Source of the DNA: Planctomycetota bacterium
GTDB taxonomy: Bacteria > Planctomycetota > Brocadiia > Brocadiales > Bathyanammoxibiaceae
Assembly (NCBI GenBank): GCA_023261505.1
Contig: JAHFOV010000019.1
Coordinates: 1 to 36,239, forward strand
Direction of reading: 5' to 3'
Length of the DNA: 36,239 nt
Part shown: positions 184 through 6,082 of the stretch, in pieces
Layout: each line of letters starts with the position of its first letter
How positions within the stretch are numbered: position 1 is the first letter of the stretch
Program-made: the position numbers and the translations under genes
The notes under the pieces: generated by a model
Seen by the model: the letters and a program-made list of their open reading frames with translations, nothing else
Databases searched by the model: none
Told to the model about the DNA's origin: nothing

Positions 184-1491
184 ATGAATATTACTTGCAT
201 AGGATGTGGATATGTAGGGCTGGTAGTGGGAACTTGTTTGGCCGATCAGGGACACAAGGTTCTATGTATAGATTCGGACACAAAAAAGATTAACAAGCTC
301 AAAAAAGGCATCCTTCCCATATATGAGCCAGGTCTGGGGGAGATACTCAATAGAAATGTGAAAGAAGGCAGGCAATCTTTCAGTACCAGCCTTGCAAGGG
401 GGACAGAAACTGGGGAGGTAATATTTATAGCAGTGGGAACCCCAATGGGCGTTAATCATGATGCCGATGTATCAGCCGTCTTCACAGTGGCAGAGAAGAT
501 TGGTCGGCACATGAGGGATTACAAGATAGTAGTTGTTAAGAGTACAGTTCCAGTAGGCACTGCCTCCGAGGTAACAAGGCTTATAAAAAATAATCAAAAA
601 CAAACTGTAGATTTTGATGTTGTATCAAACCCCGAGTTTCTCAGGGAAGGAACTGCTGTAAAGGATTTCTTGGAACCAGACAGGGTAATTGTTGGACTGG
701 ATAGTCCCAAACCCCAGCTCAGGCATATAATGGAGACCTTATACAGGGGCATCACGCATACAGAACGCCCTCTTCTATTTACTACTACAAAGAGCGCTGA
801 ATTAATAAAATACGCCAGTAACGCTATGCTGGCTACCAGGGTATCTTTCATAAATGAAATAGCCGGGCTTTGCGAGAAGGTTGGTGCAAATATTAAAGAA
901 GTGGCCGCCGGTGTAGGGCTTGATTCTAGGATTGGTACAAGGTTTCTGGAGGCAGGAGCAGGCTACGGTGGTTCGTGTCTGCCAAAGGATGTAAAGGCCC
1001 TAACCAGGATAATGAAGAAATATGGATTGAAATCAGAGATTATAGAGGCGGTGGATAAGGTAAATGAGGAACACAAGCTGATGCCAGTGAAGAAGATAAA
1101 AACCCTTCTCCCTAACCTTAAAGGGAAGAGGGTCGCCGTATGGGGGTTAGCGTTTAAGCCAGGAACCGATGACATGAGAGAGGCCCCTTCTTTAACCGTT
1201 ATCAAGGAGTTACAAAAGGCCGGGGCAAAGATCCGGGCTTACGACCCTGTAGCCGAGGCCAATGCAAAGACGCTCCTAAAACATGTGACTTTCTCTTACG
1301 ACCCTTACGACACGCTCAAGGGCTGCCATGCCCTGATAATTCTCACCGAATGGAACGAATTCAGAGAACTAGACAAGAAAAAGATAAAGGAACTTCTAAA
1401 GGAGCCTAACGTAATAGATGGCAGGAACATCTACGAACCAGAGGAGATGAGAAGGCTCGGGTTTAACTATTTGAGTATTGGAAGGAGTTAG
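184..1491 (+). CDS. ugd: UDP-glucose 6-dehydrogenase
   Basis: Oxidises UDP-glucose to UDP-glucuronate with two NAD+, supplying cell-surface polysaccharide synthesis. The 435 residues match the usual family length. The Rossmann motif GCGYVG is at residues 7-12. The catalytic cysteine lies in GYGGSCLPKD (Cys265), and the C-terminal UDP-binding domain holds WGLAFKPGTDDMREAPS. The start ATG follows GGGAGATTTATT. A UDP-glucuronate decarboxylase gene 11 kb away (12646-13599) could use the product to make UDP-xylose. The next gene converges from the other strand, with its stop only 3 bases away. Confidence 0.95.
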   Translation: MNITCIGCGYVGLVVGTCLADQGHKVLCIDSDTKKINKLKKGILPIYEPGLGEILNRNVKEGRQSFSTSLARGTETGEVIFIAVGTPMGVNHDADVSAVFTVAEKIGRHMRDYKIVVVKSTVPVGTASEVTRLIKNNQKQTVDFDVVSNPEFLREGTAVKDFLEPDRVIVGLDSPKPQLRHIMETLYRGITHTERPLLFTTTKSAELIKYASNAMLATRVSFINEIAGLCEKVGANIKEVAAGVGLDSRIGTRFLEAGAGYGGSCLPKDVKALTRIMKKYGLKSEIIEAVDKVNEEHKLMPVKKIKTLLPNLKGKRVAVWGLAFKPGTDDMREAPSLTVIKELQKAGAKIRAYDPVAEANAKTLLKHVTFSYDPYDTLKGCHALIILTEWNEFRELDKKKIKELLKEPNVIDGRNIYEPEEMRRLGFNYLSIGRS

Positions 1492-1494
1492 CAG

Positions 1495-2346
1495 TTAACC
1501 ATTACTTTGAGGATTCCATGGCTTGGAAGTATTAGAATAGATGATGTCCTGGTAAACGGGATTATTTGGACGCACAATTAGGTTTTGACCTAGGACGCCG
1601 CAAAAAAACGTGCTTTCTTTATAATTCATAGTATAGAAATTAAGAATTTTGTGGCTTTCAAGAGCGATCAGGAGGTCTCCTACGGATGAGCATGGTTCCA
1701 TTTCATGAACACCATCAGGATGCACGAGACATTTTTGTAGGAATTCACAGGCCTTTTCAAGTTCCTTAGTTTTATTTGGTAAATTGGATAGAATTTCTAA
1801 TATCTGTTTGCACAATTCGTTCTTCTCTTTTAGAAAATCGGTAACGGGACAAAGGGAGCAGCACTTTTTCTCCCCCAAATCGTAGCGTTCATATGGCTTT
1901 TTCTCTTTAATGGGATAATTAGATAAGTAACAGCCGGTACCGCTAACTAAATGACCTAAATTCTTCTTAAGCCTAAATATACCGTGCTTTATTAATGTGC
2001 GAAGGTAACGTTTAGCACGTTCGGTTAGTTCCGCATCGTCTCGGTCCTTAAATATTTCTTGCAGCATTAATAAGCAAATTTGCCGCTTTCGATTCTGCTG
2101 AGGAGGAAGGACACTTGTTACATGTCTTTGCACTTTCTCATAAGAGCCTTTGGCGTTTAATTGATTCATCAGATAAACGGCTTCATTAATAACACGGCGT
2201 TTGAATTCTTGAACAACAACTGGACTGGATATTGTAATGTTATAAGAAGCCAAACGCTGCTCAATGGCTTTCTTCATTTCTGGTTCACGTAATAGCCTGG
2301 CGATTTGGATTGATGTATCAGTGAAAATAGCGGTTCCGGATGGCAT
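1495..2346 (-). CDS. PIN-like domain protein, last gene of a three-gene cassette
   Basis: 283 residues, family not recognised with certainty. The N-terminus (AIFTDTSIQIARLL, Asp10), a following VVVQEFKRRV (Glu47) and a C-terminal GDLLIALESHKILNFYTMNYKES (Asp224, Glu230) have the order and spacing of PIN-domain nucleases. In that fold acidic residues sit at the ends of beta strands and bind Mg2+/Mn2+. The last acidic position of the usual T-x-D motif reads Asn241. A large insertion (about residues 60-215) carries a Cys-rich patch, KCCSLC (162-166), with further cysteines at 179, 200 and 206, which may bind metal. It is expressed leftward, 29 bases after its upstream neighbour. PIN nuclease activity is inferred from the pattern, not shown. 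Confidence 0.5.
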   Translation of the reverse strand: MPSGTAIFTDTSIQIARLLREPEMKKAIEQRLASYNITISSPVVVQEFKRRVINEAVYLMNQLNAKGSYEKVQRHVTSVLPPQQNRKRQICLLMLQEIFKDRDDAELTERAKRYLRTLIKHGIFRLKKNLGHLVSGTGCYLSNYPIKEKKPYERYDLGEKKCCSLCPVTDFLKEKNELCKQILEILSNLPNKTKELEKACEFLQKCLVHPDGVHEMEPCSSVGDLLIALESHKILNFYTMNYKESTFFCGVLGQNLIVRPNNPVYQDIIYSNTSKPWNPQSNG

Positions 2347-2375
2347 TACAGGAATCGTTAAGAATTTAAAAAGAA

Positions 2376-2945
2376 TTATTCTTGGGGCTTCCCACTAATT
2401 CCACGCCAAGGGTCAAAGCCGGCATCAGAAAGTACATCTAATGCTTCCTCAGAATCTGCGTCGGTTACCCCTGCTTTGCAAAGGTACTCACTAACAACCT
2501 TTTTTATGCCCAATTTTTGCGAGCAAGAAAGTTGCTCAAATTCTACTTGGGCCAACACAGCTTGCAGAATATTTAAGAGGTCTCCCCAATTGTCCTCTCT
2601 AAGACGCCTATGCTCCCATAGATCTTCCAAACAACCCTTAAATGTAAATGCTAAATTTGCCTGTTCAATGGGACCTTCCACAGTTAAGAATTTTGTAACC
2701 GTATCCGAAGCTTCACGTAATAACCTATTCACCACTTCTGCAGTTGCAATTCGTTGAAAATCTTTACCAACTGTGACTTCTGCCTTTCTTTTAGGATTTA
2801 TGGGTTCTACACCAGTTTTACTATAACACAAATCATAATTGGAACTCCTTCCACCTTGATCCTCTGTATGCTTTATAAAAGCAGTAGTGCTGCTATGTTT
2901 ACCAACAGTTCCTTCGGACTCGACTAATAAATTGCTGAAACGCAT
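2376..2945 (-). CDS. Uncharacterised protein, middle gene of the cassette
   Basis: 189 residues, not recognised. The first 55 residues are polar (many Ser, Thr, Gly). The rest is predicted largely helical, with the segments RIATAEVVNRLLREASDTVT and WGDLLNILQAVLAQVEFEQL. No transmembrane segment or signal peptide is evident. A good ribosome binding site (AAGGAAGGTG) lies 5-6 bases before the ATG. It sits 18 bases after the 264-residue gene and 29 bases before the PIN-like gene, so all three are probably co-transcribed. A role as partner, adaptor or antitoxin of the PIN-like protein is a guess from position only. Confidence 0.55.
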   Translation of the reverse strand: MRFSNLLVESEGTVGKHSSTTAFIKHTEDQGGRSSNYDLCYSKTGVEPINPKRKAEVTVGKDFQRIATAEVVNRLLREASDTVTKFLTVEGPIEQANLAFTFKGCLEDLWEHRRLREDNWGDLLNILQAVLAQVEFEQLSCSQKLGIKKVVSEYLCKAGVTDADSEEALDVLSDAGFDPWRGISGKPQE

Positions 2946-2963
2946 AAATCACCTTCCTTCATT

Positions 2964-3758
2964 TTAAGTAAAGGCATTTGGAAGCCTTCCCTCAATCTGT
3001 CTCAATGATTCGGTAATAAAGTCTCTAGCTTCTACATCCTTGGGCATTTCTACAAACGAATCAACATCAATCATTGCTGCAAATGCGGGATTCTTGGCTA
3101 TTCTTTTCTTTGCCTTCAACTGGTCTAATAGGAATTTGTTTTGGTCGCGGCTAAGCTGACTTGCACGAAGACCAAGTATATTCTCTCCAAGGTCTACTTG
3201 AGCGTAGCGCTCTACCCCGTTTATTGAAATACGGAACTTTCTATCTTTTGCTGCAATAATAGCTATATAATTCTTTGCTTCGATAGTGCCATCGAACGCC
3301 GTAGCTATTGAGTTATCAACAGGCATCTCTTTTAATAGTTCCGATATCCACCTTTCCGAATCTTCTTTTGTTGGAGAAGCAAACAAGTACCATATTCTAA
3401 AACCGACCCTAGTGAAATCCTTTAAATTAAGTCTTTCGTTTAGTATAGAGGAAACGAAATCTACTTGCTTTGTAAACTCATTTGTATCTTCTTCTTCTAA
3501 GTCTTTATCTGAACCCAGTGGTTGTTCTAATGAGAAGTCATACTTTAGTGCAGAAAAATTTAACCTTGTTCCATTTCTTAGGCTTACAAGGGGTGCATTT
3601 TGTGGATTTGGGCTGCTTTCTGGCAATATCCATTCAGAAGCACTTTTCATAATCTCATTAACAGTACTTCCACAACGGTCAAGATACGTAAAACCGTATT
3701 TGTAACGCACTTCATATACTACCTTGTTGCAGATTGAAGACTTCCCTTTAATTACCAT
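2964..3758 (-). CDS. Uncharacterised protein, first gene of the cassette
   Basis: 264 residues; I do not recognise it securely. The N-terminal half has alternating strand-like stretches (KVVYEVRYKYGFTYLD, RLNFSALKYDFSLEQPLG) and the centre has VGFRIWYLFASPTKED. The layout loosely recalls the TIGR04255 family of accessory proteins, but that is only an impression. No catalytic motif, membrane segment or signal peptide is visible. It is the first gene of the leftward cassette; a candidate promoter lies about 130 bases upstream. The whole 1495-3950 segment is visibly more A+T-rich than the housekeeping genes around it, which fits acquisition as a unit. Confidence 0.55.
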   Translation of the reverse strand: MVIKGKSSICNKVVYEVRYKYGFTYLDRCGSTVNEIMKSASEWILPESSPNPQNAPLVSLRNGTRLNFSALKYDFSLEQPLGSDKDLEEEDTNEFTKQVDFVSSILNERLNLKDFTRVGFRIWYLFASPTKEDSERWISELLKEMPVDNSIATAFDGTIEAKNYIAIIAAKDRKFRISINGVERYAQVDLGENILGLRASQLSRDQNKFLLDQLKAKKRIAKNPAFAAMIDVDSFVEMPKDVEARDFITESLRQIEGRLPNAFT

Positions 3759-3886
3759 TGTTTTACCCTGGAGTTTAGAAAATGGTAATGTCTTTACCAG
3801 AAAGTATTGAAAGGGCTAATCTGTTACTTGGGTTTCTTGGTAGCAAGAACCAAATTGTTGCTTCTAAGTATTTGTGCAATCGCGTT

Positions 3887-3914
3887 ATTGTACGCTTTTT
3901 TTTGAAATAATCAA
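3887..3914 (-). promoter_or_regulatory. Candidate sigma70-type promoter for the three-gene cassette
   Basis: On the minus strand TTGATT (3909-3914) and TACAAT (3887-3892) are 16 bases apart, facing the cassette that starts at 3758. The spacing is acceptable and the -10 is close to consensus. Near it is a direct repeat, AAGATTCAA, on the plus strand (3930-3950). No experimental support. Confidence 0.4.
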
Positions 3915-3953
3915 ACCACCGTTCAGTAAGATTCAATAAGATTCAACATAGTT

Positions 3954-4562
3954 TTATTTTTTGCACTTGATGAGAGAGCAAGAGCCAAGGAAGTTCACCC
4001 TCTCCTGGTGTTCTATCCTTAGTTCAGCCTCCTTGAGTAAGGACTCTATATCAATATGCTGCCCGAGGCCCAGGGCATTTCTGAAGGGGGAGATAAATTT
4101 CTCTATCTGAGAGAGCCACCCCTTTGTGCTGCCTGCATAGTTCAGGATATAAATCTCCCCACCCGTCCGACAAACCCTCTTCATCTCCAGTATTAACCTC
4201 AAGGGTTCAGGTACCACAGCCACCGTGTGGGCCGCAATTACCTTGTGAAATCTACCAGACGTGAAGCCCATCTTAGTGGCGTCCATTTCGTACAGCGTCA
4301 CGCGCGATAACCCGAAATCCCTCTGCCTCTGCCTGGCCTTTTCAAGCATCTCTTTAGAAAGGTCTATTCCCACTACATTAGCCTCTCTAGGGTATAAAGG
4401 CAGGGCTGTGCCTGTCCCCACCCCAACTTCAAGGATTTCCTCCCCCGGCCTTATGTTCATAAGCCTGATAGCGGCCCTCCTGCCAGCGGCGTACAGCCTT
4501 CCAAAAATGCTGTCATAGAAGGTTGAATAAAAGGCGTATACTGTTTTAAGTCTCTCTGACAT
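3954..4562 (-). CDS. Class I SAM-dependent methyltransferase, PmtA-like
   Basis: 202 residues. Motif I is EVGVGTG (residues 45-51), followed by the acidic loop VVGIDLSKEMLEKARQR. The N-terminus VYAFYSTFYDSIFGRLYAAGRRAA resembles the Rhodobacter-type phosphatidylethanolamine N-methyltransferases, which make phosphatidylcholine through mono- and dimethyl intermediates. Ubiquinone/menaquinone-type methyltransferases share the fold, so the substrate is uncertain. The ATG overlaps the stop of the carboxypeptidase gene by one base (TAATG), which suggests translational coupling in an operon with envelope genes. Confidence 0.7.
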   Translation of the reverse strand: MSERLKTVYAFYSTFYDSIFGRLYAAGRRAAIRLMNIRPGEEILEVGVGTGTALPLYPREANVVGIDLSKEMLEKARQRQRDFGLSRVTLYEMDATKMGFTSGRFHKVIAAHTVAVVPEPLRLILEMKRVCRTGGEIYILNYAGSTKGWLSQIEKFISPFRNALGLGQHIDIESLLKEAELRIEHQERVNFLGSCSLIKCKK

Positions 4563-6082
4563 TATTTAGTAGCAACTATATCTTTCGGTTTTTCGTTATT
4601 ATACGCAACGAGTACTCTACACACTGAGTCCTGGAATTCCTTTACATTGGCAGGTACGGCCTTGAAGTCATTGACCAGTATAGAAAAGGCAAGGGTATTT
4701 CCACCCCGGGTCTCTACGTAGCCAGAAAGGGCACAGACCTTAGAGATGTAGCCTGTCTTGGCCCTGACCTTTCCTGCGCTTGAAGGTTCTCTTAATCTTT
4801 TACGGAGACTCCCTGTGATACCGGAGACTGGTAGAGAAGAAATAAATGTTTCTTTCTCCTTATGCTGATACATAAAGGTCAGCAGATCGGTTATCATTTC
4901 GGGGGAGAATCTGTTCTCCCTGCAGAGCCCTGAACCATCGGCCGACTGATATTCCCAAGGTTCGTAACCCAACTTAAGCATGAATTCTCTAATTACCTCC
5001 AGGCCGGCTGAGAAGCTGCCTTGTCCCTTCATCTCTGCCCCCAGGGTCTTTAGTATCTGCTCGGCGTAAAAATTCTGACTCCTTGTGTTAGTAACCATCA
5101 CAGTCTGTGACATCGGAGAAGTTGTGCATGTAAGAAGTTGCCATGCTTGGCCGGGTTTTTCTGACCCCAGTAACCGTGGCTGGCCAGACACCTTAATACC
5201 CTTCCTTTCTAGAACTTTCTGGAAGGCGCTAACAAGAAAGAGTGGAGGCTTGTCCACCGGCACTGAATATCTTAGGGTTTTGGCTGCCGAGGGTATCTCT
5301 CCCCTGATATAAAGCTCCCCAGAGGCGGGGTTTCTACATATATGTATATGAGATTTTCTTATATTATCCGATACCCTGCAAGAATTTGATATTTTTATAT
5401 AACTACTGTCTGGTTCTAATTCCATCTTTGCCCTGCCATCTCTGCCAGGGTGGAGGATAATGTCCACACAGTTATCATTTATAGAAAGGGCGCTGGCTGG
5501 TGCGCAGTACCAGGATAGGAGCTGGTCTTTTGGCCATTCGGGGTGGACCCATTGTTCGTCGAAAAAAGAGTCATCGGCTACTATGTCTCCCTCTATCTCT
5601 TTTATCCCGGATTTGAGCAGGGCTTCTGCCCAATCATCAAGGATGGCAGTAACCTTTCCCCCATTAAAACGCCCAGAGATATTGGGGTCTCCACCTCCCT
5701 GGATGATTATATCCCCATGGAGTTTGCCCTCCTGGTCTACATTACCTCTTAGGTATAGTCTTGTCTTGAATTCGTAACTGGAACCCAGGCAATCCAGGGC
5801 AGCCGCAGTGGTAAAAAGTTTTGTGTTGGAGGCTAAAGTAAAGAGTTCTTTGCTATTGTAAGCGAAAAGTGGAGTCTTATCAGGAAGGCTAATTACGCTA
5901 ATCCCTACTAAGGCGCCTTGTACGCTGGGATTGGAGAGTAAAGGTAATAGCTGCCTGGCCAGTTCTTCCGCAAGGAGTGTGGGTTGGAAAAAAAGGAATA
6001 CAGAATTCAGAATACAGAATATAAAGCACAGAATTCCGACTCCTGACTTCTGAATTCTGAATTCTTTGATATTAGGAGGCAC
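4562..6082 (-). CDS. dacB: D-alanyl-D-alanine carboxypeptidase/endopeptidase, PBP4 type (peptidase S13)
   Basis: 506 residues, typical for the S13 family. It trims or cleaves peptidoglycan cross-links in the periplasm. The three active-site motifs are SNTK (85-88, nucleophile Ser85), SQN (335-337) and KTG (442-444); DGSGLCREN (382-390) is also family-typical. A hydrophobic stretch around residues 15-33 should act as signal peptide. That stretch is encoded by a palindromic AGAATTC repeat (5995-6065), so the secretion signal seems built from a repeat element. The start overlaps the receiver-protein gene by 11 bases, and its stop overlaps the methyltransferase start by one. Confidence 0.9.
   Translation of the reverse strand: MPPNIKEFRIQKSGVGILCFIFCILNSVFLFFQPTLLAEELARQLLPLLSNPSVQGALVGISVISLPDKTPLFAYNSKELFTLASNTKLFTTAAALDCLGSSYEFKTRLYLRGNVDQEGKLHGDIIIQGGGDPNISGRFNGGKVTAILDDWAEALLKSGIKEIEGDIVADDSFFDEQWVHPEWPKDQLLSWYCAPASALSINDNCVDIILHPGRDGRAKMELEPDSSYIKISNSCRVSDNIRKSHIHICRNPASGELYIRGEIPSAAKTLRYSVPVDKPPLFLVSAFQKVLERKGIKVSGQPRLLGSEKPGQAWQLLTCTTSPMSQTVMVTNTRSQNFYAEQILKTLGAEMKGQGSFSAGLEVIREFMLKLGYEPWEYQSADGSGLCRENRFSPEMITDLLTFMYQHKEKETFISSLPVSGITGSLRKRLREPSSAGKVRAKTGYISKVCALSGYVETRGGNTLAFSILVNDFKAVPANVKEFQDSVCRVLVAYNNEKPKDIVATK
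5995..6065. repeat. AGAATTC-type inverted repeat inside the carboxypeptidase gene
   Basis: The left arm around 5996-6020 has ACAGAATTCAGAATACAGAA; the right arm, TTCTGAATTCTGAATTCT, is at 6048-6064. They are near-complementary and could form a hairpin. The element overlies codons about 6-30 of the gene and supplies the hydrophobic part of its signal peptide. Similar GAATTC-rich repeats are familiar from intergenic DNA in several phyla. Confidence 0.65.

Follow-up and report, generated by a model that had tools for sequence, protein, structure and literature searches.

A patchily distributed three-gene cassette with a putative PIN-type nuclease, inserted next to ugd in a planctomycete genome

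The window analysed here, i.e. the whole stretch of 36,239 nucleotides of contig JAHFOV010000019.1 (Planctomycetota, Bathyanammoxibiaceae), carries three open reading frames on the minus strand, flanked by ugd (184-1491, plus strand) on one side and by a methyltransferase gene (3954-4562, minus strand) on the other. Do these three genes, designated A, B and C, form an accessory unit, and what kind of unit might it be? The first-pass annotation had described a tightly spaced, A+T-rich cassette with its own promoter, possibly of a defence or toxin type and inserted next to ugd. The features of the locus are as follows.

2964-3758, minus strand: gene A, 264 aa, with a predicted TBP-like fold, perhaps distantly related to TIGR04255, with a proposed role as sensor or trigger
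2376-2945, minus strand: gene B, 189 aa, an acidic protein (pI about 5) with a proposed role in restraint or coupling
1495-2346, minus strand: gene C, 283 aa, putative PIN-type nuclease with a long insert bearing conserved cysteines, proposed effector
3759-3953, minus strand: intergenic DNA upstream of A, with a weak promoter-like site at 3914-3887
1492-3953, no strand: inserted DNA, with approximate limits set by comparison with the empty site of a genome from the same family

The gaps of 18 nt between A and B and 29 nt between B and C bear out the tight spacing, and the composition is indeed unlike that of the neighbours, with GC of 0.38-0.41 and GC3 of 0.31-0.37 in the three genes compared with 0.42-0.50 and 0.46-0.59 in four flanking genes. 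The coding part of the cassette ends at 3758, and 3759-3914 is upstream DNA, for which the claim of an own promoter was not upheld: the site at 3914-3887 is at chance level in a promoter scan (four promoter-like sites in the region versus a mean of 6.1 in dinucleotide shuffles), and the region upstream of A shows no conservation among the cassettes of relatives. No operator-like palindrome upstream of A is conserved either, and a 9-nt repeat found there in the window is absent from the relatives. Among four close copies, whose synonymous sites are near saturation, pN/pS of the cassette genes was 0.22-0.44, which shows that all three genes are under purifying selection.

Comparison with other genomes indicated that the cassette has been inserted. 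In a genome of the same family (G195), the order nth-ugd-methyltransferase-dacB is kept with the cassette absent and 118 bp between ugd and the methyltransferase gene. Window positions 184-1487 and 3962-4559 align to 4122-5434 and 5568-6165 of L078, and the 2.47 kb between them (1488-3961) is replaced by about 0.13 kb at the empty site; the cassette is also missing in genome G745. No direct or inverted repeats of at least 9 bases were common to both insertion junctions. In genome G743, the interval between nth and the methyltransferase gene contains a gene for the toxin ParE and one neighbour (L081:2293-3117), thus the site is variable and seems to accept different accessory genes. Together with the patchy spread over the order and over phyla described below, the empty site directly supports the proposed accessory unit next to ugd.

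Among 392 genomes of the phylum Planctomycetota, C was found in 7 and A in 8. A whole-order search recovered A in 5 of the 62 genomes of the window's order, and A was not found in any other genome searched of the same family. Scanning 84,980 species genomes added one copy from Acidobacteriota (49% identity) and one from Spirochaetota, and G479, a copy that has diverged strongly, came from a profile search in Acidobacteriota. Co-occurrence of the three genes elsewhere had been named as the check on which the unit would stand or fall, and the A-B-C order recurs in ten other genomes, which belong to Planctomycetota, Acidobacteriota and Spirochaetota, at identities as low as about 20% and with B always as the middle gene. 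Besides the window, these loci are G366, G228, G374 (from the window's order), G339, G041, G145 (split at contig ends), G277, G479, Acidobacteriota L020 and Spirochaetota L023. Across matrices over ten genomes, the pairwise identities of the three proteins are correlated with one another at r = 0.96-0.98 (permutation p <= 0.0002), which indicates that the three genes diverged together. The three genes are a conserved, co-diverging, patchily distributed and inserted unit under purifying selection. While the closer relatives of the window's A and C include the Acidobacteriota copy at 45-49% identity, the G339 copy from the window's own order is just 23-27% identical to the window, which points to horizontal transfer. 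Searches of plasmids, phages and viral contigs gave nothing for A, and a plasmid search gave nothing for C.

A location in defence islands, which had been named as a check, was not borne out: most copies sit amid housekeeping genes, outside recognised defence islands, and no defence-island clustering was seen. Toxin genes were found near some of them: a PemK gene lies about 0.6 kb from the G228 copy, and a TIGR04255-PemK string lies about 13 kb from the cassette on the G041 contig. In Spirochaetota L023, A and B are intact and C is broken; the PIN-like start of C is cut off by a stop, after which there is just the C-terminal part, and most of the middle is gone (L023:10096-10659). A broken C beside intact partners fits a costly effector, in a single assembly where an error is possible. 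Several other observations were made at these loci. Beside the G339 cassette, an inovirus (filamentous-phage)-like prophage was recognised by eye from a Zot-like ATPase, a secretin and a replication protein (L024:335-6683). Directly upstream of A in G041, a gene has a weak likeness to ClpP-like SDH serine proteases (L022:9534-10025, E 0.082). On contig C77 of the same genome, an A-like fragment without B or C is in frame with the C-terminal end of PurL (L025:1127-1852), and could be an insertion remnant or an assembly chimera.

The annotation of C as a PIN-like protein with a Cys-rich insert fits the alignment of its homologues. D10, T11, S12, I13, E47 and D224 are invariant across nine of them, as are the cysteines C139, C166, C219 and C249. 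D10 (within FxDTSI), E47 (on the helix that follows) and D224 (within GD[LA][LI][IM]A) are more conserved than their surroundings and follow the D...E...D order of acidic residues of PIN domain nucleases (PF01850 clan). In the tenth homologue, G479, E replaces D10 and the last cysteine is absent. The order of the predicted elements of C, with beta-alpha-beta-alpha before the insert and alpha-beta-alpha-beta after it, is that of PIN domains. A profile of C scored 31.5 against 24 PIN proteins of related genomes, compared with 9.9 +/- 1.6 (maximum 15.6) for column-shuffled C and no more than 15.1 for the controls B, A, TIGR04255 and reversed C against the same PIN profile; the match spans the N-terminal half of C. 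The window's C had no Pfam PIN match, and one homologue weakly matches PF01850 (E 0.0043). The AlphaFold2 model of C was poor (pTM 0.53), and no PIN structure was among the Foldseek matches of this poor model. In the PADLOC search, one copy of C matched CARF_HEPN in the helical insert (E 1.4e-6), probably by chance since the match is absent in orthologues of 60-70% identity, and two Cmr5 matches in single homologues were also judged to be helical chance matches. The protein is mostly basic, with a pI of 8.7-9.1 in seven of ten copies and of about 9 in the window. This sequence evidence supports C as a PIN-type nuclease whose acidic triad is intact, and the cysteines suggest a putative metal site.

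The two partners are, as had been annotated, without recognisable function: neither A nor B, nor C itself, had anything above threshold in Pfam, NCBIfam, PADLOC or PHROGs. For B, no recognisable family was found in Pfam, NCBIfam or PADLOC, and no known antitoxin family. It is acidic (pI 4.4-5.4), and its position and charge suggest that it may act as an antitoxin or coupler. The alignment of A has residues invariant among homologues, and its AlphaFold2 model (pLDDT 78.6, pTM 0.79) contains a duplicated beta-alpha-beta-beta-alpha unit. Foldseek returned TBP (TATA-binding protein) chains as the top PDB matches at low TM (0.26-0.38), and one viral protein scored better than these (TM 0.46/0.58). 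Direct PDB sequence searches gave chance matches only, and an SspD match of A (E 0.017) was not taken to be meaningful.

A kinship of A with TIGR04255 is possible as judged by profiles. The window's A does not match TIGR04255, falling short of its curated cut-off of 30 bits, and two A homologues match it weakly and below threshold (E 0.018 and 0.072, the latter at 12.9 bits). The global profile score of A against TIGR04255 was 20.7, compared with 3.4 +/- 2.5 (maximum 12.8) for a column-shuffled null, with shuffles of 40-column blocks reaching 24.8. The profile similarity vanishes once the G277 and G479 members are removed; hhalign without the most divergent members found no similarity between A and TIGR04255, and a first local comparison likewise found none. 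By inspection, the order of predicted strands, helices and motifs is the same in the two.

This possible kinship draws attention to the gene strings that TIGR04255 heads in Planctomycetota, a family for which no mention was found in the literature searched. In a sample of 30 loci from the phylum (L040-L069), a mechanical reading of open reading frames placed two more genes in a tight same-strand string with TIGR04255 at 21 loci, one of them with a doubtful third gene. The second gene is variable, and the third encodes a PIN protein at four of the 30 loci (L046, L048 and L049 by Pfam, L065 by a whole-genome PIN scan and reading of its frames) and PemK/MazF at one (L042). Three of these 4-9 Mb genomes have 20-34 PIN genes each, or some 0.4% of all genes if there is one per kb, thus chance would put about 0.1 PIN into the 30 third positions, a rough figure for genomes that were chosen for having such strings. 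The other third genes include DUF7689 and two recurrent groups, with 'RQGDIF...VLTQDCDL'-like motifs and 'LLRR'-like starts. The cassette resembles these strings in its order but differs in that A is below the cut-off, B is by eye unlike the middle genes, and the PINs there are short and VapC-like, without the insert. We tentatively consider, at somewhat less than even probability, that A is a divergent TIGR04255 member, that TIGR04255 is the shared head of an undescribed three-gene immune or toxin class whose effectors can be exchanged (PIN, PemK/MazF and several unnamed families), and that the cassette is a cysteine-insert PIN branch of this class.

Among known systems, VapBC is similar in being a small, patchily spread operon whose last gene is for a PIN-type nuclease (putative in the cassette) with D-E-D residues; this nuclease is basic, and the gene right before it encodes an acidic protein. 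However, VapBC is a two-gene operon with an antitoxin of a recognised family, while the cassette has three genes, with an extra, predicted TBP-like one (A) in first place, its C is twice the length of VapC and carries the cysteine-bearing insert, and its B, at 189 aa, matches no known antitoxin family; no operator-like palindrome was found. In the DefensePredictor systems DS-3 and DS-5, a PIN nuclease is needed for phage protection and, in DS-5, a partner protein as well (PMC13092281). Both contain a PIN domain, as predicted for the cassette, and DS-5 also has a partner; however, DS-3 consists of a single protein and DS-5 of a pair, with DUF5830 and AcrIF4-like domains, and these descriptions set the cassette apart.

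We propose that the cassette is a horizontally moving three-gene module, toxin-antitoxin-like or for abortive infection, in which A senses, B restrains or couples and C cuts, and we give this proposal an even chance of being right. C, as a PIN-fold nuclease, would stop growth by cutting RNA (or DNA); the acidic B, made just before C, would bind the basic C and either hold it inactive or couple it to A; and the TBP-like A would sense a trigger, e.g. phage nucleic acid or protein, and release or activate C. In this scheme, what A and B do, what triggers the module, what C cuts and how the host gains are inferred. A toxin- or defence-type unit is the best reading because of the putative PIN active site of C, of toxin genes that lie close to several copies and of the parallel with TIGR04255-X-toxin strings. 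To this extent the defence or toxin type suggested by the first-pass annotation gained ground; against it counts that the cassette matched no known defence or toxin-antitoxin family and that the PADLOC models were unmatched.

TBP-like folds often bind nucleic acid, and A and B might instead recognise foreign nucleic acid and recruit C to it as a direct nuclease-type defence complex, with neither protein an antitoxin. The basic C of the window would suit such a complex, and DS-5, a PIN system of two proteins that has been validated, shows no toxicity when its partner is missing (PMC13092281). However, the TBP-like matches of A are weak, the copies showed no clustering in defence islands, and the PemK toxin in the TIGR04255 parallel favours a toxin; we regard a direct defence complex as rather unlikely, though with a real chance of being correct.

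A housekeeping or stress role in RNA processing, in which C would mature or degrade a particular cellular RNA with A and B as dedicated cofactors and no part in toxicity or defence, seems improbable to us. Some PIN proteins do act in RNA processing, all three genes are under purifying selection, and copies lie amid housekeeping genes, but the cassette is missing in 57 of the 62 genomes of the order, including all the other genomes searched of the same family, and has a foreign base composition. A needed RNA-processing factor would not be so patchy, thus the patchy distribution and the empty site argue against it. It seems very improbable that C is no active nuclease at all and, as a PIN-like or metal-cluster protein, has a structural or regulatory role. 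While the four invariant cysteines suggest a metal site, the divergent G479 lacks both D10 and the last cysteine, and the fold model of C is poor, D10, E47 and D224 are invariant in nine homologues and conserved above their surroundings.

PIN nucleases in toxin-antitoxin and defence systems are already known, including recently validated examples (PMC13092281). The libraries searched contain neither the A and B families nor the insert with its cysteines nor the arrangement of three genes. All three proteins fall outside every family library searched, yet they make up a coherent, horizontally spread unit, and its scattered distribution over phyla far apart suggests that it is a toxin- or defence-type unit so far undescribed. 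If it is of this type, the cassette would add a PIN branch with new partner genes, and the comparison points to TIGR04255, an unnamed family, as a recurring head of three-gene toxin-bearing modules.
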